Below, piece by piece: positions 3,001-43,744 of a stretch of 64,000 nt of DNA. This DNA comes from Methanobrevibacter millerae (GTDB lineage Archaea > Methanobacteriota > Methanobacteria > Methanobacteriales > Methanobacteriaceae). The notes below the pieces were generated by a model that was not told where the DNA came from, ran no database searches, and saw nothing but the letters and a program-made list of their open reading frames with translations. Position 1 is the stretch's first letter; each line of letters opens with the position of its first letter. The position numbers were made by a program, and so were the translations under genes. The stretch spans positions 1,782,001-1,846,000 of the forward strand of contig NZ_CP011266.1 in the NCBI RefSeq assembly GCF_001477655.1. The letters run 5' to 3'.

Positions 3001-6000
3001 CTGTAATATCACGTTTTTCAACATTGAATGTTTTTGATGCACCTGATCCAGTGTAGTTTTCATCACCGGCTAAAACAGCATTAACAATATATTCACCAGC
3101 AGGAAGACCACCATCAATAGTAATCACATTATTAGTTACAGTGTATTCTTTACCATTAATTGTTACAGTAACAGCACCAGTTGAGTTAACAGGATTTAAA
3201 GTAATAACAATATCATCACCAACTTTATATAACTCTTTAACATCAATTCCAATACCTGAAGTATTTTTATTGATATTAAATTTAGCACTTGCAGTTACAT
3301 TATTATTGTAGTCATCAGTAGAGAAGAACTCAACACTAGCAACTTTAGCTCCTGCAGATAAACCTTCTAAATCAATAGTTCCAACACCATTGGTTACTGT
3401 TCCTTTGAATTTCTTACCGTCAACAGTAATGTTAACAGTTCCGTTTGCTTTATTACCAACAGTAATTGTAGCAAGAGCCTTAGCAGGATAAGTCACATCA
3501 TCAACAACAACACTAATTTCAGGAGTTACTCTTGAAACAGTAAATCTAACATTGTTTAATGTTAATTCATCATAGTTATCATCACCATAGAAGACTACAG
3601 TAGCAACCTTATCACCAGCAACAGGTAAAATATTACCAATTACAAGAGCTTCAACAGTACCATTGTACAATACATCATCACCGACTTTAATGGAAACATT
3701 TCCATTAAATTTATCAGTAACATTAATTACAAATGAAGTATTTTCTTTAACAGTAACATTTAAAGCAGTCACATTTACATCCAAAGTAGCATTACCCATT
3801 GTAAATGTTGTTGTGTCATTGCTTGCAATATACTTATAATCACCAGCATAAGTTACATTAACTTTATGGATTCCACTGTTTAATCCGGATGCATTGAATC
3901 CGCCTTTACCATTTACAACTGCAACATAATATTCTTTACCGTCAACAGTTAAAGTTACAGTAGTGTTAATTGAAGGATTCATTGTAACTGTAATTACAGC
4001 ATCTTCACCAACCTTAACAGGAACTTTAACAGCAACATCAATGTCAGTAGCGATTTTAGCTACATTAAATTGTTTAGCTGCAGATGAATTTCTATTATAC
4101 TTATCATTTCCATTAAATGTAGCAACAACAGTTAAAGTTGCATTATTTACAGGAGTGTAAGTATATGTTGCCACATTAGCATTGTTTACTGCAACAGTGT
4201 AGTTAACACCATTAATAGTAAATACTACATCACCAGTAACAGTTTCATTCAATGTAGCATTGAAGATGACTTTATTACCAACATAAATTACGGAAGTAAT
4301 GTCTTTTATAGTAATTGTAACATTTTGTTTTTCAATTTCGAAGGTTTCCATTATTCTTGCACTAGTGTAATTTTTATCACCGTTGTAAATAGCTACAACA
4401 TCATTTAATCCAAATGTTAAATTATTTTTCAAGGTTGCATTACCATTGACAAGCTTAATTGTGTATTCATTACCTCTGGTGTAGAATGTTACATTACCTG
4501 TTGTGTTTCCGCTGACAGTAGCAATTAAGTCAGTACCGTTTTGTGTTAAGGTAATTGTAGGAGTTGCCTGAGGAATTGAAGGACGGAACTCTTGTGAGAT
4601 TTTTCCGTAATTCTCATCGCCATCATAATTGACAGTTGCAGAATGTAGACCTGCAGAAAGATTGTTTAATCTTAAGGTAGCACTGTTAGTAGTTCTGTTG
4701 ATAGGAACAACATATGAAACACCATCAATTTTAATGGTTAAGTTTTCACCTTTAATGTCCTGAGGTATGTCTGTTATATTGATTTTTGAATATTCGCCGT
4801 ATGGGTTATATTCAAAATCAGTTATTGTTACTTTCCAGCTTGTATTTGGACCTACATTAAATACAGTATTGTTCTTATCCTTAGGAGTGTATCTAGGACC
4901 ACCGTTGTAAGTTACATTTACAACATGATCTCCACCAACTAAATCGGCAACATCCAAAGTAGCTACACCGTTAGTAAGGTTTACAGTACCTTTGTCAACT
5001 CCGTCAACATAAATTGTAACGTTTCCAACAGCATCAGTAGCAACCAATACCCTTACAGTAGCATTCTGACCGTAAGTGATATTATCAACTTTCACATCAA
5101 TTGTAAAGTTGCCGGTCGGACCAACTTTGAATGTGGCGTCAGTTGAGTTTCCATTGAATTGATTATCTGTAGAGAAGAATGTTACATGAGCAGTGTAAGT
5201 TCCTACATTTAATCCGCTGATGTTGAAGTTTGCAACACCTTCATTAATGTATGCAACATAGATTTGAGATCCGATACGTACTGCAATGAAACCTGTTGCA
5301 TTTTCATTAACGGTTACATTGATTATTTCATTTTCACCGTATGTAATGTTAGTTGTATTTACAGTAATTGTAGTATTCAGCAAGTATACTTCAAAGCTCG
5401 TCTGATTCATTGCATATTTATAATATCCATCTTCAATATAAGTGACAGACATCCAGTAAAGACCAGGATCAAGTATTTGGTCAAATGTTAAATTGAATGT
5501 ACCGTTTACAAGTTGGAAATCCTCATATCTACCATTGAAGTAGATTCTTATTGTTCCGTTACCGTTTGAAGTAATGTTTGCACTTCCGTAAATTCCATAA
5601 GTATAATTCTGGATTGAAATTATAACCCATGTATCACGTAATTTAACAACGAATTGAGTTGTGTTTTGACATTCAAAGTGGTTTACATCACCGGAATACG
5701 TTGCAGTTACATGGTAAGTATTTGCAGTAAGGTTATACAGGTCTAAAGTTGCAATACCCTTAATAAGTTCCCTTATATAAGTTTCACCATTTACATCAAA
5801 TGTTACATTTCCTGTAATAGTGTTTGGATCCTGCGGCACGGTAGCAGTAATAGTAACATGCTCACCTTCATTTATCTGTTCTACATCAAGTAAAAGAGTG
5901 GTATCTACCAAAACGTTCAGCGTACCGTTATATACAGCAGCATTTGGCAGTCCGACATCTTTACCGCTGATGTGGAATGTACCATTGTAATATACCTGAG

Positions 6001-31476: not shown

Positions 31477-33939
31477 TTATGATAAGTTTTTTTCAGCCAA
31501 GTATTTTCCCGTTAGACTTTCAGGAGTATTAATGATATCTTCCAGACCACCTGTGGCTAGAATTTCTCCACCATTATTATCCTCATCGATTCCAATATCA
31601 ATTATGTAATCCGCATTGGCTATCAAGTCCAGATCATGTTCAATTACAATAACTGTAGCTCCCCTGTCAATCAGATTATCAAATACATCAATTAAAACTT
31701 TTACATCTAACGGATGAAGACCAATTGTCGGCTCATCAAAGATGAAAATAGAATTCTTTTGAGATTTTCCAATTTCAGATGCCAATTTCAGTCTTTGAGC
31801 TTCACCACCAGACAGGCTTGGAGTAGCTTCACCCAATGTCAAGTAACCCAATCCCAAATCAGAGAGTTTTTGTAGCTTAGATGTCACTTTTTTAAGACCA
31901 AACAACTCTTCCAATGCTTCATCAACAGTTAAAGTCATGATATCTGCAAGAGACAAACCGTTATAAGTTGTTTTTTCTATATCTTTATTGTATCTTGTAC
32001 CATCACAATCAGGACAAGTCATCTCTACATCAGGCAGAAACTGCACATCCATTGAAACGCTTCCAGTCCCATTACATGTTTCACATCTCAATTTTCCAGT
32101 ATTATATGAAAAATCAGCAGTCTTATACTCATCAGACAACTTTGCAAATTCACGCCTTAAATCATCTAAAACTTTTGAGTATGTTGCAACAGTACTTCTT
32201 ACATTCTTTCCAATAGGAACACTGTCAATCAAATCAATTTTTTTGATATCCTCGCATGAAATATCATAAACATTTTCTGGCAACTCTTCATTGCCAATAT
32301 ATGATTGGACTGCAGGATAAAGTGATTCTAAAAGCAGCGTTGTTTTTCCACTTCCAGAAACTCCAGTTACAGCAGTAAATTTACCTTTTGGAAACTGAAC
32401 ATTCAATGATTTTACATTGTGAATTTTTGAAGTTTTTATATCAATAGAACCATTTCCAAACATGTCCCGAGATTTGTTTCTAATAATAATCTTTTCAGAA
32501 TTTGTTAAAAAAGGTGCAATTTGTGAAGATTCATTGGCTTTAATTTCATCAAGTGAACCCTGAGCTATTATATTTCCGCCATCAGCACCTGCAGTTGGAC
32601 CTAATTCCACCATATAATCTGCAATGCCCAATATTTTTGTATCATGATCAACTAGAATTATTGAATTTCCATCATCTACCAAGCGCCTTATCACACTAAT
32701 TAGGCCATTTACATTATCAGGATGAAGACCAATAGACGGTTCGTCCAAAACATACAATACACCAGTAGTATGATTTCTTAAAGTTTTTGCAAGCTGCACC
32801 CTTTGCAGTTCCCCAGTAGACAATGTATTTGCAGGCCTGTCAAGAGAAATATAACTTAATCCCAAATCAAGTAAAATATTAGCATTATCCAAGAATTCCT
32901 CCAGAATATTTTCTGCCATTTTGCCAACATTCTCCGGAAGCTCGCTTACAACCTTCTGAATCCAAACAACAAGATCTTTTAGATTCATCCGACATGCTTC
33001 ATCAAGACTAATTCCACCCAGAAGAGTTTGTCTTGCCTTGGAATTAAGTCTTGTTCCACCACAATCGGGACAAACCTGCGTAGTCAAATATTTATTTATT
33101 CTTTGAAGTCCTTTTTCTGTCTTTGCTTTTTTAAGAGCTTCTTCAACTGCTTTATGAGCATTCCTATACTCTGCATTCAATTCAAACAGTTTGCCGTTTT
33201 TGGAAGGAATGTTTATATATCTTTTAACTGATGGTCCGTTATAGACAATGTCCTTTTCTTTTTCAGTCAAGTCCTTAAATGGAACATCTACCCTTACTCC
33301 CAGTTCTCCTGCAACATGATACATCCATGAAATTCCAAACATGTTCCATGATTCGACAGCACCATCTTCGAGAGTTTTTGTCTCATCGCCAACTAATTTC
33401 GAATCGTCAATGCCCCTAATATAACCGGTTCCCTCACATGTCGGACATGCACCATCAGAGTTAAATGCATACTCTTCAGCACCTAATCCATAGAATTCTT
33501 CACCACATTCAGAACATTTTATTGGGATTTCACGAGCTACATTAAGTGTTGGCTCTTGCATATGTCCATTTGGACAAAAATAGTTACCGCACCTAGAATA
33601 TAATAATCTCAAAGAGTTTAAAAGTTCTGTGGATGTTCCAAAAGTTGATCTGATATTCGGAACATTAGGGCGCTGATGAAGTGCTAAAGCTGCCGGGACA
33701 TACTGGATTAAGTCAACCTGAGCTTTTTGAGTTTGTGAAATCCTGCGTCTTGTGTAAGTTGAAAGGGCATCCAAATATCTTCGTGACCCTTCAGAGTATA
33801 ATACTCCCAAAGCAAGAGATGATTTTCCGCTTCCGGAAACACCAGAAATAGCAACAATTTTTCCAAGAGGAATATCCACATCAATATTTTTTAAATTGTG
33901 AACTTTAGCTCCCCTTATTATTATCAAATCTTTATACAT
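31477..33939 (-). CDS. UvrA-type ABC excinuclease subunit, short UvrA2-like form
   Basis: The 820-residue protein has two ATP-binding cassettes with Walker A motifs GVSGSGKSSLAL and GVSGSGKTTLLL, two ABC signatures (STGELQRVQLA and SGGEAQRLKLA) and Walker B (YVLDEPSIGLHP and FIFDEPTIGLHP). Zinc-binding pairs are seen in CSECGEEF/CPTCEGTG, CPDCGGTR and CETCNGTG/CPDCDGTR. Standard UvrA has about 940 residues; the shortfall and the sequence after the first Walker A fit UvrA2 proteins, which lack the UvrB-binding domain and have been linked to drug or intercalator tolerance. No uvrB or uvrC is nearby. It stands alone downstream of purA with a gap of 23 bp. Confidence 0.85.
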   Translation of the reverse strand: MYKDLIIIRGAKVHNLKNIDVDIPLGKIVAISGVSGSGKSSLALGVLYSEGSRRYLDALSTYTRRRISQTQKAQVDLIQYVPAALALHQRPNVPNIRSTFGTSTELLNSLRLLYSRCGNYFCPNGHMQEPTLNVAREIPIKCSECGEEFYGLGAEEYAFNSDGACPTCEGTGYIRGIDDSKLVGDETKTLEDGAVESWNMFGISWMYHVAGELGVRVDVPFKDLTEKEKDIVYNGPSVKRYINIPSKNGKLFELNAEYRNAHKAVEEALKKAKTEKGLQRINKYLTTQVCPDCGGTRLNSKARQTLLGGISLDEACRMNLKDLVVWIQKVVSELPENVGKMAENILEEFLDNANILLDLGLSYISLDRPANTLSTGELQRVQLAKTLRNHTTGVLYVLDEPSIGLHPDNVNGLISVIRRLVDDGNSIILVDHDTKILGIADYMVELGPTAGADGGNIIAQGSLDEIKANESSQIAPFLTNSEKIIIRNKSRDMFGNGSIDIKTSKIHNVKSLNVQFPKGKFTAVTGVSGSGKTTLLLESLYPAVQSYIGNEELPENVYDISCEDIKKIDLIDSVPIGKNVRSTVATYSKVLDDLRREFAKLSDEYKTADFSYNTGKLRCETCNGTGSVSMDVQFLPDVEMTCPDCDGTRYNKDIEKTTYNGLSLADIMTLTVDEALEELFGLKKVTSKLQKLSDLGLGYLTLGEATPSLSGGEAQRLKLASEIGKSQKNSIFIFDEPTIGLHPLDVKVLIDVFDNLIDRGATVIVIEHDLDLIANADYIIDIGIDEDNNGGEILATGGLEDIINTPESLTGKYLAEKNLS

Positions 33940-35136: not shown

Positions 35137-37023
35137 ATGCATATTGAAAGACAATTTAGAGAACTGGAAAAAATTGAGGAAATCAGTGCATATAATATAA
35201 ATAAAATTGATTTATTTGAACATGCACCGCAATTCAAAAAGCCAGAAAAGATTCCTCTGTCCAACATAATCAGTTATGTACAATCTGACGTTAATATGTT
35301 TATACCGATAGAAGGTGAAGAAGACTATATTGTCAATAGATTAGGTTGGAATATTCTTCAAAGAGGAAATATTAAATTGGAGGATGTTGAAGGTCGTAAA
35401 CTAAGTGAATGCTCACCGTTTTTCTATAAAATATTTAATGAGCCATTTAAAGAAATCCTAAAGACAAAAGAACCAAAAGCAATGCGAATTTTTTATTATG
35501 TGAGCGATAAAATTCAGACATTAACCAATGTCCAGATACTCTGTGATGAGGGGAATATCTTTGTTATTTCAGATTATGTTGATGGTCTGCATGATGAAAA
35601 AAGCTTAGAAGAGAAAAAAATTGAAGATGATGCAAACAAATCCAATTTAATCGAATACTTCTCTCAGACAGGAAGCTACTATAAAATAAGAAATGAATAT
35701 ACATGGACCCAAGGAATTTATAACATCATCAACAGGTCACCGGAATCCAACGATGCATATTACAATATTATCTTTGATTTAGTAATTCCAGAAGACAAGC
35801 CATTGGTTAAAGAATTGCTTGACACAATGAGTCCAGAAACAGATTCCTATGAAAACATCATCAGAATCAAAACACGCGATGGACATATCAAATATTTGGA
35901 TACATACCTATACTCCAAATTTGATGAAAATAGAAATGAAATCAGCCATTACGGTCTGTTTAAGGACGTGAGTCTTGATTCACATAAACACATGACACGT
36001 CCTGTTGACTTTATGCTGAATGGATTCAATCATAATTCCAGATTATCACTACTTGTTGAACCGTTAAGCAAAAGATATGAATTCAGTGAAGGATTTTATG
36101 ACATTGTCGAAGTACCTCATGAGAAATATATCCACAGTCAGGAAATACTCAAAAATATTGTGGAAGAGGATGTCAAAGAAAACATTAAACAGTTAATCAA
36201 CGGCGAAATTGAAGAAGTAAATACAATTCTTACATACAAGGTCAACGGCAATCCTGAAAACTTGAAGATATGTGAATTGTTTATTGAAGTGTTCAGTTAT
36301 GGAAACAACAAGCACAGCATCGGATTTTTAACCGACATTACAGACATGAAGAAAAAACAGAAGGAACTGATAGAATCCAATGCCAACAAAAACATCCTAA
36401 TAAAAGAGGTGCACCATAGAGTTAAAAACAACTTACAGGTATTGAACAGTTTCTTAAACCTTGAAAGACGTGCTTATGGAAATAATCCGAATAGAATTTT
36501 GGACAATATGCAGGCACGCTTATCATCACTTGCACTGCTGCATGAAAAAACATACAATACAACAGATTTCTTAAATATCAACTTGAAAGAATATATTGAA
36601 GACCAGGATGAAACTCTTCAAGGTTTATTCAGCGCAAAGCACATCAACTTCAAATCAGAAATTGATGAAAACATTCATTTATCCATTCAGATAATTACCC
36701 CATTACTATTAATAGTAGATGAACTTACAATGAATGCTATTAAACATGCATTTCCTGATGAAAATATGGAAAATAAGACTATTACAAAAAGAATTGATTA
36801 TATTGATGAAAATATTTGTGAATTTATCCTAGAAGACAATGGAGTAGGTCTTGAAAGTCCCGAACAACTTATAAACCACAATTTAGGTTGGGAAATAGTA
36901 AAAAGCCTTACAAAACAATTAAACGGAAAAATTGAAATAATGAATACTGAAGTTGGAACAGCATTTAAACTAACATTCCCAACAAGTTTTGATTATTCAC
37001 TAGATGAAAAAGGAGGAAACTAA
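35137..37023 (+). CDS. Soluble PAS-containing sensor histidine kinase (HisKA_2 type), first of a tandem pair
   Basis: A 628-residue protein without membrane segments. Residues 1-160 are a domain I do not recognise, two PAS-like segments follow (about 165-285 and 290-405), and then the HisKA_2 dimerisation helix with EVHHRVKNNLQVLNS, phospho-acceptor His at 426/427, and the ATPase domain with DELTMNAIKHAFP (N box), EDNGVGLESP (G1) and LGWEIVKSL. Such kinases sense cytoplasmic or diffusible signals. The next gene (37024-38898) begins directly after this stop codon and is a full-length paralogue; GGAGG for it lies inside this gene. A receiver protein and a receiver-glycosyltransferase fusion follow, so the likely output is surface polysaccharide synthesis. 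The signal is unknown. Confidence 0.9.
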   Translation: MHIERQFRELEKIEEISAYNINKIDLFEHAPQFKKPEKIPLSNIISYVQSDVNMFIPIEGEEDYIVNRLGWNILQRGNIKLEDVEGRKLSECSPFFYKIFNEPFKEILKTKEPKAMRIFYYVSDKIQTLTNVQILCDEGNIFVISDYVDGLHDEKSLEEKKIEDDANKSNLIEYFSQTGSYYKIRNEYTWTQGIYNIINRSPESNDAYYNIIFDLVIPEDKPLVKELLDTMSPETDSYENIIRIKTRDGHIKYLDTYLYSKFDENRNEISHYGLFKDVSLDSHKHMTRPVDFMLNGFNHNSRLSLLVEPLSKRYEFSEGFYDIVEVPHEKYIHSQEILKNIVEEDVKENIKQLINGEIEEVNTILTYKVNGNPENLKICELFIEVFSYGNNKHSIGFLTDITDMKKKQKELIESNANKNILIKEVHHRVKNNLQVLNSFLNLERRAYGNNPNRILDNMQARLSSLALLHEKTYNTTDFLNINLKEYIEDQDETLQGLFSAKHINFKSEIDENIHLSIQIITPLLLIVDELTMNAIKHAFPDENMENKTITKRIDYIDENICEFILEDNGVGLESPEQLINHNLGWEIVKSLTKQLNGKIEIMNTEVGTAFKLTFPTSFDYSLDEKGGN

Positions 37024-38898
37024 ATGAAAATACAAAGAGAATATTGGAAACTGGAAGACCTTGAAGAAATAAGCATCTATGACATTTCAGAAAGAGAATT
37101 ATTCAAATATGTGGATCCAGTAACCGAAGTACCTCCCATCCCATTCAAAAATACATTAAGAAGCCTTCCATGCGATATGGATGTTTTCATACCATACAAT
37201 GACGGTGAAGATTTTATAATACACATGCTGGGATTGACTGCACTGGAAAGAGGAAACATAAGATTAAAAGATGTTGAGGGAAGATTATTAAGCGAATGCT
37301 CACCGGGATTCCATAGCATTTTCCATAAAGCATTTTATGAAGTTTACAAAACAGAAAAACCTAAAAAATTCCGTGTCAACTATTATGAAAACGATAAACT
37401 GGCAAGACTATCTAATGTGAAAATATTATACGATATGGGAAAAATCATTCTAATATCAGAGCTGAAATACACCAACGAAACCAAATTTTTAGAAGAAAAC
37501 TTTAAAAATTATGATGAAAACAAAGCGAATCTGATTGAATACTTCTCACAAACAGGAAGTTATTATAAAATCAACGATAAATATTCATGGACCCAAGGTG
37601 TCTATAACATTATTAATCGTTCAAGAGAAGAAAATGATGAATATTACAATATTATATTTGATTTGGCAATACCTGAAGACAGACCTTTAATAGATAAAAT
37701 TCAGAAGAAATTGGATAGCGGGGTCGCTGCTTATGAATCAGTCATACGAATTAAGACTCATGACGGTATTTTAAAGTATCTGGATTTGAATTTCTATTCA
37801 AAATTTGATGAAAATGATGAATTGATAAGCCGTTATACTTTAATTAAAGACATTACCAAAAATTCAAACAAGCAAATTACAAGACCCGTTGACTTTTTGC
37901 TGAATGGATTTAAAAAGTCCAAAAAACAGGCTTTGTTAGTCGAGCCGTTAAATCAGAAACAATACGAATACAGCGAAGGCTTTTATGATATAGTGGAAGA
38001 AGATAAAGAGACTTATTCAAACAGAAAAGTAATCATAGAAAATATCGTTGAACAGGAAACTGTAGAAAATTTCAGAAGACTATTCAATAGAGAAATCTCA
38101 GAACTTGAAGAAACATTTACATATAATGTTAAAGGAAATCCAGAAAATCAGAAGATATGTGAAATTTACATTGAAGTCTTTGAATTTGGACAAGAGGAAC
38201 ACAGTATTGGATTTTTAACAGACATTACTGAAGAAAGAAGTAAACAGATTGCTCTTCAAGAGGCAAATGAGCATCAAACCGTATTGATAAAAGAGGTTCA
38301 CCACAGAGTTAAAAACAATCTCCAGATTTTAAACAGTTTCCTGAACTTGGAAAAAAGAGCATATAAAAATCAGCCCAATATAATTATTGACCATATGCAA
38401 TCAAGATTATCTTCACTGGCACTGCTGCATGAAAAAACATACAATACCACCGATTTTAAAAATATTAACTTAAAAGATTATATCATTGATCAGGATAATA
38501 AACTTAAAAGTTTAATAGGCTTAAGAGATGGTATTGAATTTAAATCAACTGTCCAGGACGACATTAATCTTTCAATTGAAATCATTACACCATTGCTTTT
38601 GGTTGTTGACGAATTGACCATGAATGCAATCAAACATGCATTCCCTACAGATTGGCCAAATAAAACAATAAGCAAAGAATTCAGAAAAATTGATGACAAT
38701 ACAGGAGAATTGATTATTAAGGATAATGGTGTGGGTATTGATAAAACCAAAAAAGATATGAAGCACAGTCTTGGATGCGAGATTATTAAAAATCTGACAA
38801 AGCAATTGGATGGAGATATTAAAAATATTGATGTTGAAAAAGGAACTGCATATAGATTACTATTCCCGTTGACAATGGAACATACAATTTCACAATAA
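37024..38898 (+). CDS. Soluble PAS-containing sensor histidine kinase (HisKA_2 type), second of a tandem pair
   Basis: This 624-residue protein matches its upstream neighbour domain for domain: the same unrecognised N-terminal region, the shared NLIEYFSQTGSYYKI segment opening the first PAS-like region, RPVDFLLNGF, then EVHHRVKNNLQILNS, DELTMNAIKHAFP and IKDNGVGIDKT. The pair arose by tandem duplication, but divergence is spread over the whole length, so the event is old. Two kinases converging on one receiver would let two inputs, or a heterodimer, control one output. A 61-bp gap with an AAGGGATA ribosome site separates it from the receiver gene. Confidence 0.9.
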   Translation: MKIQREYWKLEDLEEISIYDISERELFKYVDPVTEVPPIPFKNTLRSLPCDMDVFIPYNDGEDFIIHMLGLTALERGNIRLKDVEGRLLSECSPGFHSIFHKAFYEVYKTEKPKKFRVNYYENDKLARLSNVKILYDMGKIILISELKYTNETKFLEENFKNYDENKANLIEYFSQTGSYYKINDKYSWTQGVYNIINRSREENDEYYNIIFDLAIPEDRPLIDKIQKKLDSGVAAYESVIRIKTHDGILKYLDLNFYSKFDENDELISRYTLIKDITKNSNKQITRPVDFLLNGFKKSKKQALLVEPLNQKQYEYSEGFYDIVEEDKETYSNRKVIIENIVEQETVENFRRLFNREISELEETFTYNVKGNPENQKICEIYIEVFEFGQEEHSIGFLTDITEERSKQIALQEANEHQTVLIKEVHHRVKNNLQILNSFLNLEKRAYKNQPNIIIDHMQSRLSSLALLHEKTYNTTDFKNINLKDYIIDQDNKLKSLIGLRDGIEFKSTVQDDINLSIEIITPLLLVVDELTMNAIKHAFPTDWPNKTISKEFRKIDDNTGELIIKDNGVGIDKTKKDMKHSLGCEIIKNLTKQLDGDIKNIDVEKGTAYRLLFPLTMEHTISQ

Positions 38899-38959
38899 TA
38901 AACATAGTAATATATAATTAATAAAAGATAAAAATAATATATGATAGGAAAGGGATAAA

Positions 38960-39370
38960 ATGAATGAACGCATATTAATTGTTGAAGATGAAGCAATCAC
39001 TGCACTTGACTTGAAGTATAGTTTGGAAGAACTTGGATATGAAGTTATAGATACAGTAGATACAGGTCAAGATGCAATTGATACTGCTGCAGAAACCATT
39101 CCTGATGTTGTATTAATGGATATAAAATTAAAAGGAGATATGGAAGGAATAGAAGCAGAAGAAGTAATTTCTGAACTAAGAATACCTATTGTTTATTTAA
39201 CCGCGAACACAGATATTGACACTTTTGAAAAATCTAATGTGAAAGGATCATACGGATTTATTTCAAAGCCATATGACATTACCAAATTAGATAAAACATT
39301 GAAAATAACAATCAAAAGGTCACAAATGGAAGCAAAAAAAATAAACGATGCACAAGGGTTTAATGAATAG
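38960..39370 (+). CDS. Stand-alone response-regulator receiver protein
   Basis: The 136-residue product is a single CheY-like receiver domain with a complete phosphorylation site: acidic pair E9-D10, phospho-acceptor D54 in VVLMDIKLKG, Thr81 in YLTAN and Lys103 in SKPYD. There is no output domain, so it acts by protein contact, as phosphate shuttle or as partner of the receiver-like domain in the next protein. It probably receives phosphate from the two HisKA_2 kinases upstream. Its stop lies 11 bases before the glycosyltransferase start, so the genes are most likely co-transcribed. Confidence 0.92.
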   Translation: MNERILIVEDEAITALDLKYSLEELGYEVIDTVDTGQDAIDTAAETIPDVVLMDIKLKGDMEGIEAEEVISELRIPIVYLTANTDIDTFEKSNVKGSYGFISKPYDITKLDKTLKITIKRSQMEAKKINDAQGFNE

Positions 39371-39381
39371 TAACTGATAAA

Positions 39382-41142
39382 ATGAATTCTAACGAATTGA
39401 ATGAAGTTACTTCACTTGCAAAATCCCATCCGGACATTTTAGTAATCAGTTCAGATAATGAATTGATTAACCAATTAAGAGAATATATTGAGGATTATGA
39501 CTACAATTTTATAGGATCTGCAGATACCAAAGAGAAGATAAAAGATAAAATTGCAAGATTATCCCCCAATCTTGTTTTACTCGATTCTGAAATCGAAAAT
39601 ATTGATTTAATTAAATTAGCCAAAGATTTAGAAAAATATGATATCCCAGACATAGTCATCGTTGGAGAACGTTTCGATGATATGGTGGATAAAGTATTGA
39701 TGATTACTCCATACGGATATTTATTTAAAGAAATCGATAAAGAAGAGTTACAGCGTGCAATGGCAGTAGCTATTAGAAAACATGAATTGAATAATCAAAA
39801 GATTGTTGAAGCCAAAACTAAAATTGATGAAAAAAATACGGAATTGTTAATTGAAAAGTCAGATTCCAGTTTTCTTTTAGTATTATGTGTTGCATTAATC
39901 ATTATGGCAATTCTATCAAGAAATGCTACCTGGCTTCAATGGGTTTTACTTATTCCTACTGCAGCAATGTTAATTAATGGAATAGCCAGTATTAAAAAAC
40001 CAGCAGAAGTAACATATGATTATGAAAAGCCATTTGTAAGCGTTTTTATACCTGCACACAACGAACAGGCAACAATTGAAATGACTGTTAGAAGCGTGTG
40101 TGAATCCGATTATTATGTTGATGGCAAACCTCATTTTGAAGTTATTGTTATAAATGACGGTTCAACTGACAGAACGGGCGCAATTCTACATGACATCAAA
40201 GAAGATTTGCCTCAATTAAAAATTGTTACAAGAAAACCTCCAGTATCAGGGAAAGGAAAAGGATTTGTACTTAACGATGCATTAACATTATCAAGAGGCG
40301 AAGTAATTGGTGTTTTTGATGCGGACACTAAAATATGTAAAGACTATCTTACTAAAATAGTTGCTTATGTGGCCGATCCCGCAATTGACGGCGTGCAGTC
40401 AAGAGTGAAAATGTATAACCGTGATGAAAATTTTTTAACGCGAATGCAACATGTCGAATTTGCAAGCTTTGGAAATACCCTAAGAGCCAAAGACAATTTG
40501 GGAAATACAGGATTTTTAGGAGGAAACGGCCAATTTGTTAGAAAGCAGTCAATAGTTGACTGTGGAAAATGGGACGGATTTGCTGTAACTGAAGACCTTA
40601 ACCTGGCTGTAAAAATAATGCTTAGAGGTGGAAAAATAAGATACTGTGGTGAAGCAGCTGTTTATCAGGAAGCAATTACCCAATGGAAACCATTTTTCAG
40701 ACAAAGAGTTAGGTGGGCAATCGGTAACTTTGAAACACTTTTCATATATTTGCCGCAAATCTTAAGGTCAAAAGTATCAATTCCTAAAAAATTCGGAATC
40801 ATCGAACACATTTCATTTTACAGTTTCAATTTACTCATATTCTTTGGTTTTATCATAACCATTGCAAATGCAATATCCTGGCTTCTTTTACATGATGTGA
40901 CCATTATAAGAATGGAAGCCCCATTCATTGTAGGTATTTTATCTGCAATTTCATTTTTCCCAGGAATAATGCTTGCATTATCCAGAGACAGTCCAGGAAT
41001 TATAGAATTTATCAAAGATATTGTCAAATATTACATTTACTGTTTCCATTTAATTCCACTGTTTTTCATGACGATGGTTAGTATGATGACAAGAAAAGAG
41101 CGCAAATGGGCTAAAACTGAGCATAAGGGAGGACAAGATTAA
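39382..41142 (+). CDS. Receiver-like domain fused to a membrane processive glycosyltransferase (GT2)
   Basis: Residues 1-140 form a receiver-like domain: D68 in LVLLDSEIE aligns with the phospho-acceptor and K in GYLFKEI is kept, but the acidic pair has become SSD and the Thr position is Gly, so phosphorylation is doubtful. Two membrane helices follow (about 160-205), then a family 2 glycosyltransferase with VINDGSTDRTG, the metal-binding VFDADT, VTEDLNLAVK and RQRVRW, the D, DxD, TED, (Q/R)xxRW set of cellulose/chitin/poly-N-acetylglucosamine synthases, and three to four C-terminal helices. Full motifs suggest an active processive enzyme making an exported polysaccharide; the sugar is unknown. 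The fusion and the adjacent kinases suggest direct two-component control of polymer synthesis. Its stop overlaps the next start by one base. Confidence 0.88.
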   Translation: MNSNELNEVTSLAKSHPDILVISSDNELINQLREYIEDYDYNFIGSADTKEKIKDKIARLSPNLVLLDSEIENIDLIKLAKDLEKYDIPDIVIVGERFDDMVDKVLMITPYGYLFKEIDKEELQRAMAVAIRKHELNNQKIVEAKTKIDEKNTELLIEKSDSSFLLVLCVALIIMAILSRNATWLQWVLLIPTAAMLINGIASIKKPAEVTYDYEKPFVSVFIPAHNEQATIEMTVRSVCESDYYVDGKPHFEVIVINDGSTDRTGAILHDIKEDLPQLKIVTRKPPVSGKGKGFVLNDALTLSRGEVIGVFDADTKICKDYLTKIVAYVADPAIDGVQSRVKMYNRDENFLTRMQHVEFASFGNTLRAKDNLGNTGFLGGNGQFVRKQSIVDCGKWDGFAVTEDLNLAVKIMLRGGKIRYCGEAAVYQEAITQWKPFFRQRVRWAIGNFETLFIYLPQILRSKVSIPKKFGIIEHISFYSFNLLIFFGFIITIANAISWLLLHDVTIIRMEAPFIVGILSAISFFPGIMLALSRDSPGIIEFIKDIVKYYIYCFHLIPLFFMTMVSMMTRKERKWAKTEHKGGQD

Positions 41143-41768
41143 TGAGAAGACAAGACGTGATTCGTAGTATAATCTTAGCAATCATTATCATATTCCTTGC
41201 TGCAAACATTAATGGAATCAACAGTTTTTTAAGTGTTCAAACTGATAGGACAATTGATTTTGACCACAGCGTTACAGTAGTTCCTCAGGCATGGAACACA
41301 ACAGAAGAATTAAATCAAACAAACCAATCCAAAACTCCACATGCAATTACAAATGAATATGTATATATTGACCATTGGGATGATTGGCCAGAAGACCATA
41401 TCACATCAATATCGAATGAAAAATTCGCATCTATGGAAAATGGTGGTTTTGAAGTATTGAAAGTTGAAAATACTACACTCAGTGGCGTTCCAGTCTCTAA
41501 AGAATATTTCACCAATCCATCCAGAGACAATAATATTACATGGAGTCATATTGGAGTTAATTATGTTTTCCCTAAGGAAGATACCAATTATTCCATACAG
41601 GTTCATTACTTTACAAGTCATGACTATAACAACACTACATTTTTAAAAGAAGTTGATGACCGCATAGAAGATGATATGTCAAATATCCACAATAATCACT
41701 ACAATGGATTTTTCTCAGGAATCAGAGGAATATACAATTTCTTTTCAAACATGATTAAACAAAAATAG
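41142..41768 (+). CDS. Membrane-anchored extracytoplasmic protein, hypothetical
   Basis: The 208-residue product has an N-terminal hydrophobic helix (about residues 8-28, IILAIIIIFLAANINGINSF) and then an outer domain with many Asn-x-Thr/Ser sequons (NTT, NQT, NNT). I do not recognise the domain; it includes WDDWPEDHITSI and a mixed alpha/beta-looking C-terminal half. The start overlaps the glycosyltransferase stop (TAATG), so the two are translationally coupled and the protein probably assists export, modification or display of the polymer. That role is inferred from position only. A short run of A/T with no clear terminator follows. Confidence 0.7.
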   Translation: MRRQDVIRSIILAIIIIFLAANINGINSFLSVQTDRTIDFDHSVTVVPQAWNTTEELNQTNQSKTPHAITNEYVYIDHWDDWPEDHITSISNEKFASMENGGFEVLKVENTTLSGVPVSKEYFTNPSRDNNITWSHIGVNYVFPKEDTNYSIQVHYFTSHDYNNTTFLKEVDDRIEDDMSNIHNNHYNGFFSGIRGIYNFFSNMIKQK

Positions 41769-42175: not shown

Positions 42176-42454
42176 TTATTTTTTGATATTTAAAACAATT
42201 TCCTCCTGTAAAAAATGATTTTTATAATTGAAATTTGAAACAAAATCTATATCCCAAATATTATCATAAAAAACTGTGAAAAATGAATTTTTAGCAAATC
42301 GTACAGATAATGATAATACTTCATCATTTTTTGGATTGCCCAGCTCGACATCAATAAATTCCAAATAAATAGAATCGCCCGAAATCTCAATAGAAGCCAA
42401 TTTAGCAAAATTACCAATAACATCTTCAATCAATCTTAAAGAATCATTTTTCAT
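42176..42454 (-). CDS. Hypothetical small protein of the DUF6882/DUF6891 cassette
   Basis: A 92-residue protein with a predicted run of beta-strands (IYLEFIDVELG, VLSLSVRFAKNSFFTVFYDN) and no cysteine or catalytic motif. The start ATGAAAAATGATTC overlaps the stop of the gene before it by 11 bases, showing translational coupling. I do not recognise the family. The cassette (43734 down to 41871) consists of four tightly packed small soluble proteins, a pattern also seen for immunity-type or stress-type gene groups, but no toxin gene is present. Confidence 0.65.
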   Translation of the reverse strand: MKNDSLRLIEDVIGNFAKLASIEISGDSIYLEFIDVELGNPKNDEVLSLSVRFAKNSFFTVFYDNIWDIDFVSNFNYKNHFLQEEIVLNIKK

Positions 42455-43040
42455 TCATAACACCTGTAAATAATTCATAAGCACCTTCAATTTCATATTC
42501 TGTATCTTCACTATATTTCTTATCCCACTTAAAGTTAATAATTTCAATAGGAGAATTGACAGTATTGTCCCAATTGACTTTAAATTTTGCATCAATTAAC
42601 TTTTGATAAACTATTTCACCTATTTCCAAAGATTTATTTTCATCTCTTTGAAAATCACCGAAAGTTAATTTGAGAATATCCCTCTCAATAGCTTGTTCCA
42701 CATCTTCAAATGTATAAAAGCAGAACCCTAAAGCAGAATATTTGTTGTTAATTAGATGAACATACAATTCGTAAATATCATCAACACCTTCTTTAAAGTC
42801 ATATCCGCAGTTGTGTACACAAATGATTGCTTTTTCAGATAATTTTTTAAAGGTTTTCTCCAGAACAGAGAAATTATTGTTGTTAAAATCATTTGGAGAA
42901 ATATCAAACTCAGAAAAATCAATTTCATATTCAATGAACTGATCTTCTAAAATTTCCAATATCTCATCTTGTGAAAAAAAACCAGATTTAGTTAATAAAT
43001 CTATCATGTATTCTATTTCATCAACTAAATCCTGATTCAT
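42444..43040 (-). CDS. DUF6891-like protein
   Basis: About 198 residues. The central AIICVHNCGYDFKEGVDD, LGFCFYTFEDVEQAIERD and LKLTFGDF, and the later KVNWDNTVNSPIEIINFKWDKK, follow the pattern I associate with DUF6891 proteins (a His-Asn-x-Gly-Tyr segment, GxCFY...D.E.A, then F.W..). The function of the family is not known. I use ATG 43040, preceded by GAGTGAT; an in-frame TTG at 43058 would overlap the upstream gene. It sits next to a DUF6882-like protein, and these families tend to be found together. The family assignment is from memory of the pattern and not tested. Confidence 0.6.
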   Translation of the reverse strand: MNQDLVDEIEYMIDLLTKSGFFSQDEILEILEDQFIEYEIDFSEFDISPNDFNNNNFSVLEKTFKKLSEKAIICVHNCGYDFKEGVDDIYELYVHLINNKYSALGFCFYTFEDVEQAIERDILKLTFGDFQRDENKSLEIGEIVYQKLIDAKFKVNWDNTVNSPIEIINFKWDKKYSEDTEYEIEGAYELFTGVMNEK

Positions 43041-43044
43041 GCAA

Positions 43045-43734
43045 TCACTCTTCTTCAAGTAACATTTGAATAGTTTTTACATTTCCTCTTTCAGTAAATC
43101 CGACAATTATGCGGCTTTCTCCCAAACATGCAATATCAAAATCATCATGATGTTTAATGCCATGGCCTTTAAGTTTAGTATAAGCATCAAAAGCTATTTT
43201 TGGATAAATATTGAAATTCTTTTGGAAAGTATAGAAAGTATCTTTAAATTTCTCGACACTATTGACTTCCGGAACATTGCCTTTTTCAATAGCTACAAAT
43301 ATATCCAATCCCTCTTCATTTACAGCATAATATGCATCGAAATCCAAGATTCCAACAGTTGCCATTGCCAATGTATGACAATCATTGAAATCCGCTTGGA
43401 TTACAGAAGTGGAAAATTCTGGAATTCCCGCATCAATTCCTGCTTGTTTCATTTCGATGGCTGCCTTGATTAATTCATCACCGAAAATTTCTTCACTGTC
43501 CCAAGCCCAGGACCATTGTTTTAAATCCTCACGGTAGAATCCTAAAATCTGAATAGGCAATTTAATATCATCAAATATTAAAATACCATTCTCCAAATCT
43601 AAATCTCCTTCAACATCACCAATTAATTCTGATAAATTTTCTTGTTTATCTAGTGCCAAAGCACCATATTTTGATAAGACTACTTTAAATGAATCTCCTT
43701 CACGAATGACAACAGGTTCTTCAATAGTTTTCAA
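43045..43734 (-). CDS. DUF6882-like protein
   Basis: About 229 residues with the aromatic motif LKQWSWAWDSEEIFG after the beta-strand pair IKLPIQILGFYRED, followed by DCHTLAMATVGILDFDAYYAV. The W.WAW segment and its surroundings match the pattern of DUF6882 proteins, soluble proteins of unknown role. The gene follows dapL by a few bases; AGGTGA lies across the dapL stop. Two TTG codons are possible starts (43740 and 43734); the second has the better six-base spacing to AGGTGA and is used. It probably shares the dapL transcript, which says little about function. Confidence 0.6.
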   Translation of the reverse strand: MKTIEEPVVIREGDSFKVVLSKYGALALDKQENLSELIGDVEGDLDLENGILIFDDIKLPIQILGFYREDLKQWSWAWDSEEIFGDELIKAAIEMKQAGIDAGIPEFSTSVIQADFNDCHTLAMATVGILDFDAYYAVNEEGLDIFVAIEKGNVPEVNSVEKFKDTFYTFQKNFNIYPKIAFDAYTKLKGHGIKHHDDFDIACLGESRIIVGFTERGNVKTIQMLLEEE

Positions 43735-43744
43735 AGTCAATCAC

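Follow-up and report, generated by a model that had tools for sequence, protein, structure and literature searches.

A candidate closed two-component circuit ending in a receiver-fused polysaccharide synthase of Methanobrevibacter millerae

Fusions of receivers to a BcsA-like glycosyltransferase of family 2 (GT2, PF13641) have been published as REC-BcsA and REC-REC-BcsA, a group of 13 proteins from Methanobacterium, Methanobrevibacter and Methanothermobacter, with MTH_548 as an example (Galperin 2018, PMC5847659). The passages of that paper dealing with these fusions do not take up the state of the pocket or the mechanism and contain no mention of a pseudo-receiver, of an equivalence between a free response regulator and a first receiver (REC1), of a kinase operon, of the accessory gene P5 described below or of a genome with two receivers. 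The synthase described here carries one receiver N-terminal to a PF13641 GT2 domain and belongs to this group (REC-GT2). Its membership stands despite a degenerate receiver pocket, since in those passages the group, with its one or two N-terminal receivers, is defined by architecture and not by pocket.

Analysis of the window, a stretch of 64,000 nucleotides of the M. millerae genome, was performed on the operon listed in Table 1. In a first-pass annotation, two soluble HisKA_2 kinases, a complete receiver and a GT2 synthase with a degenerate receiver had been described, and open reading frames, Pfam searches and hydropathy agree with this description. Both kinases matched HisKA_2 (E-values 1.8e-17 and 2e-16), HATPase_c and PAS_3 in Pfam, and no transmembrane segments were found in either of them by hydropathy. 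The free receiver (RR) matched Response_reg at 8e-20, residues 19-126 of the synthase matched the same family at 2.4e-9 (37.8 bits; cut-off 30.2), and Glyco_tranf_2_3 (1.3e-27) was among several GT2 models matching the synthase. The gene ends, said to overlap or abut, do so for HK1 and HK2, which abut, and for the synthase and P5, which overlap by 1 base, but HK2 and RR are separated by 61 bases and RR and the synthase by 11.

Table 1. Positions in the window of the operon genes and of the fused receiver domain
Feature	Position	Strand	Description	Evidence
HK1	35137..37023	+	soluble sensor kinase: N-terminal region, PAS_3 (189-269), HisKA_2 (424-489), HATPase_c	Pfam, hydropathy, conservation in 20+ genomes
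HK2	37024..38898	+	HK1 paralogue, soluble PAS/HisKA_2/HATPase_c kinase	ORF, Pfam, conservation
RR	38960..39370	+	canonical single receiver, REC1 counterpart of REC-REC-GT2	Pfam, pocket, tree
REC-GT2 synthase	39382..41142	+	pseudo-receiver, linker, 2 TM, processive GT2 catalytic domain (residues 216-455), C-terminal TMs	
Pseudo-receiver domain of REC-GT2	39424..39807	+	residues 15-142	pocket comparison, structure model
P5	41142..41768	+	one N-terminal TM, then soluble domain rich in N-glycosylation sequons	

The domain search for fusions and their neighbours that had been proposed in the annotation yielded 51 REC-GT2 loci from the order and a conserved operon. The gene order purA (opposite strand), HK1, HK2, RR, REC-GT2, P5, aminotransferase (opposite strand) was found, where the contig allows, in about two dozen Methanobrevibacter genomes, among which two loci (L068 and L069) are missing the adjacent kinases. 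More than 20 species-level genomes have the operon in synteny between purA and a gene for a DapL-like aminotransferase, so its arrangement is not due to chance. In the window, the stretch from the operon to the aminotransferase gene contains two genes annotated without a function (DUF6891 and DUF6882; 42444-43740). An 820-aa UvrA-like ABC protein with a UvrA DNA-binding domain is encoded at 31477-33939 and is found near the operon in several relatives too.

The synthase carries the signature of processive GT2 enzymes (D, DxD, TED and QxxRW) as NDGS, DAD, TED and QRVRW, conserved throughout the family alignment, together with transmembrane helices predicted by hydropathy. Its best-characterised relatives in NCBIfam and the PDB are the XrtP-associated glycosyltransferase, PgaC/IcaA and BcsA, with scores far under the equivalog cut-offs: 130.8 bits against a 422-bit cut-off for the poly-GlcNAc synthase PgaC/IcaA (TIGR03937) and 73.8 against 699 bits for the UDP-forming cellulose synthase CelA/BcsA (TIGR03030). 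P5 accompanies REC-GT2 almost obligatorily in Methanobrevibacter and the genera close to it; of 151 genomes 41 contain it, with few exceptions adjoining REC-GT2, and it is absent in the neighbour map beside the double-receiver forms of the Methanothermobacter and Methanobacterium types. Profile searches gave no matches to P5 in Pfam or PDB, and its AF2 model (mean pLDDT 42) gave no identity from structure. The protein is probably an accessory subunit located outside the cytoplasm.

The host genome is a single contig of 2,543,538 bases (99.99% complete), and its receiver domains number exactly two, RR and that fused to the synthase, both inside the operon. That the entire receiver set of a genome consists of one pair in one operon is new here. 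Neither HisKA nor GGDEF was found in this complete 2.54-Mb genome. Three HisKA_2 kinases are encoded, two in the operon and one unlinked paralogue with the architecture of HK1 and HK2 (L104, 6244-8109; G000:C1, about 314 kb), which no receiver adjoins. The remaining HATPase matches can be read as a protein resembling topoisomerase VI B and a small one resembling RsbW. With only two receivers in the genome, two-component output is confined to RR and REC-GT2, barring non-receiver targets, on which the kinases could act. A route from the kinases through some other response regulator was rejected, as the genome has none. HK1 and HK2 combine HisKA_2 with HATPase_c, and the canonical RR is taken as their cognate receiver because all are encoded in one operon and no other receivers are present. 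Across the genus, a receiver is present in 35 of 67 genomes, 33 of these 35 having a REC-GT2 locus, RR and the fused receiver are the sole receivers in 23 of the 67, and HisKA_2 occurs in 33/33 genomes with REC-GT2 versus 4/34 others, all of these counts being inflated by kinship among the genomes.

In the best-supported model, which we consider probable, the two soluble PAS/HisKA_2 kinases, and perhaps the unlinked third one too, would autophosphorylate on the HisKA_2 histidine and pass the phosphate to Asp54 of RR. The docking site of phospho-RR would be the degenerate receiver, at the N-terminal, cytosolic end of the membrane-bound GT2 synthase, and the resulting change would be relayed to the enzyme through the helix between this pseudo-receiver and the first transmembrane segment, turning polymer synthesis on or off. 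The contact between RR and the pseudo-receiver would stand in for the covalent link between REC1 and REC2 of the related double-receiver enzymes. The model builds on domains, pocket states, collinearity and homology with those enzymes and the lack of other receivers, as read from the sequence; the phosphotransfer, the docking, the sign of control, the identity of the glycan and the role of P5 we infer. The M. millerae operon would, in our judgement, probably be a closed signalling circuit with an enzyme as its endpoint.

Comparison of the two receivers suggests a split of roles between a canonical RR and a degenerate fused receiver, which is well supported at the level of sequence. The pocket of RR is canonical (E9/D10, D54, T81, K103). 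In the fused domain S23/S24(/D25) replace the acidic pair and G95 replaces the threonine, just as the annotation had read a partly lost acidic pocket (SSD for the acidic pair, Gly for Thr), so that a phosphorylatable pocket is not present (S23/S24, G95), though D68 and K116 are retained. All 36 RR-type receivers carry the E/D acidic residues, the Asp, a Thr or Ser and the Lys, and both the acidic pair and the switch Thr are gone in each of the 32 single-receiver fusions with an RR upstream; the sole single-receiver fusion without an RR (L083) has a canonical pocket. Since these degenerate fusions with a separate RR form one clade in the glycosyltransferase tree (99/91), the correlation represents essentially one evolutionary event, not 32. 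REC2 of the fused double proteins is canonical in 15 of 17 cases. In two still-fused REC-REC-GT2 proteins (G016 and G017) REC2 is without its Asp and REC1 has kept it, which appears to be the same division of labour within one chain.

The fused domain is nevertheless constrained, though less than RR: its mean column entropy is 1.10 bits versus 0.28, and its dN/dS 0.09-0.10 versus 0.03-0.045 (dN/dS values for HK1, HK2 and P5 are rough, with dS near saturation). The pseudo-receiver thus evolves under purifying selection, and the idea of a decaying leftover was rejected on the dN/dS of 0.09-0.10. In 25 Methanobrevibacter-type copies Asp68, Gly95 and the helix-5 residues E122, R125, A128, V129, K133 and H134 are invariant, and Lys116 is mostly retained. 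The invariant Asp68 and the mostly kept Lys116, together with the canonical pockets in both receivers of Methanothermobacter-like REC-REC-GT2, would suit an arrangement in which the fused receiver acts as phospho-switch in its own right, with Asp68 phosphorylated by the kinases or by phospho-RR via the kinases and RR serving as a phosphate sink or second output. We consider this unlikely: in this lineage Ser-Ser stands in place of the acidic pair required for Mg2+ and Gly in place of the switch Thr, and the related pseudo-receivers of L070, L072, L077 and L079 have lost the Asp as well, so phosphorylation cannot be general there. Residual phosphorylation of the fused domain at Asp68 is also unlikely.

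Whether the fused N-terminal domain folds as a receiver had been named in the annotation as a test, and here the predicted structure agrees. AF2 gave a receiver fold with pLDDT of about 60-87 across residues 16-140 and a helix continuing toward TM1, and Foldseek matched the modelled domain to the KdpE and YycF receivers (target TM 0.85-0.86). In this model of the full synthase, built on an alignment of five close sequences, only the receiver is usable, the GT and TM parts being of low confidence.

The relatives with two receivers help to place both domains. Two-receiver glycosyltransferases of 706-801 aa were found in Methanothermobacter-like and Methanobacterium-like genomes and in some closer genera. 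With one such REC-REC-GT2 protein (G143) as tblastn query, one collinear stretch was obtained across RR, its stop codon and REC-GT2 in several Methanobrevibacter genomes, for example in G076, where query residues 10-710 aligned at 41% identity with two stops inside. In the receiver tree the RRs group with REC1 domains (99/94), and the fused single receivers group with a REC2, that of G017 (96/90); this latter position conflicts with the glycosyltransferase tree and may be due to long-branch attraction. By the collinear tblastn matches and the receiver tree, RR is the counterpart of REC1, and REC2 is the most likely counterpart of the fused pseudo-receiver. The trees are unrooted and give no order of age between the split and fused states. 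The widest search covered 152 Methanobacteriales and near genomes, and the distribution beyond these rests on PMC5847659. Two variants were observed among the relatives: a minimal HisKA_2-HATPase kinase of about 200 aa with no sensor domain directly after REC-REC-GT2 and P5 (L074, 11385-11984; also L075, L076 and L078), and a REC-GT2 of 1396 aa (L071, 5007-9197) with about 820 N-terminal residues without a domain beyond weak coiled-coil-type matches.

The circuit has also been lost or damaged. In G045 (L107, G045:C1:1488000-1504000, around 3271-5224) an intact P5 and the final 45 codons of the glycosyltransferase gene adjoin purA, and the kinases, the receivers and the remainder of the synthase are all missing there, which is most simply explained by one deletion that removed the circuit. 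In G041 (L094, 3385-11732, minus strand) one kinase copy and the glycosyltransferase are interrupted and RR is intact; this locus appears to be an operon in decay. Such joint loss in G045 and the joint breakage of a kinase and the glycosyltransferase in G041 speak against RR acting on a non-receiver partner or feeding back on the kinases, with the operon meaning mere co-expression and the fused receiver being a scaffold or localisation domain. Contacts between proteins are a frequent working mode of single-domain response regulators, as that explanation would have it, but the relatives carry REC1 and REC2 covalently joined to GT2, and we hold it to be improbable. It is very doubtful that the pseudo-receiver binds a small ligand such as c-di-GMP, as in ShkA, with RR acting elsewhere: binding of c-di-GMP by pseudo-receivers has precedent (PMC7010744), but RR is collinear with REC1 and the genome offers it no further receiver or output protein as a target, and c-di-GMP control of the synthase was rejected for a genome without GGDEF.

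Docking of RR on the pseudo-receiver is the reading retained. The annotation's view of the fused domain as a partner and not a phospho-acceptor gains from the REC-REC-GT2 equivalence, the lack of other receivers and the receiver-fold model, as an inferred role. Its proposal that kinase and receiver are coupled to GT2 directly, without a transcription factor, is likewise strengthened by the equivalence and the lack of other receivers, but the novelty of the fusion falls away. Taken to its full extent, the whole two-component signalling of this genome, three kinases and two receivers, would converge on a single membrane polysaccharide synthase as its output, and docking of the phosphorylated free receiver on a pseudo-receiver would switch this enzyme, the two being separated halves of a tandem-receiver enzyme; we give this wider claim about an even chance. 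A processive polysaccharide synthase would then be gated without a nucleotide messenger, and the cell surface of an abundant group of rumen methanogens could be set by this operon. How archaeal two-component systems produce their output has been little tested, and because this genome leaves essentially one candidate for receiver output, five proteins would suffice to test the whole pathway.

Among known systems, BcsA cellulose synthase and PgaC/IcaA share with the M. millerae enzyme the processive GT2 domain with DxD, TED and QxxRW and the flanking transmembrane segments. BcsA, however, is switched by c-di-GMP via PilZ, whereas the regulator here is a receiver in a genome without GGDEF. In CmrR/CmrT of Clostridioides difficile a canonical receiver is likewise co-encoded with a probable pseudoreceiver and the data suggest heterodimers, but both proteins are DNA-binding regulators of the OmpR family with no enzyme output (PMC12548384). 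HfiA of Caulobacter is, like RR in our model, a small protein that directly binds and controls a polysaccharide glycosyltransferase, HfsJ; unlike RR, it is not a receiver, and two-component signalling acts on its transcription, and HfsJ belongs to the WecG/TagA family, not GT2 (PMC3900383). No system joining a canonical receiver/pseudoreceiver pair with a directly bound glycosyltransferase was found described in the open-access literature. The architecture is not new in itself, since the receiver-GT2 fusion is already published, and it is a family-wide trait of Methanobacteriales. New are the two-receiver genome, the REC1/REC2 correspondence, the loss of the pocket in essentially one event and the constrained pseudo-receiver with a modelled receiver fold. 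The REC-REC-GT2 proteins, the forms with a degenerate REC2 and the split forms make up a rare comparative series from a tandem-receiver enzyme to a two-protein switch.
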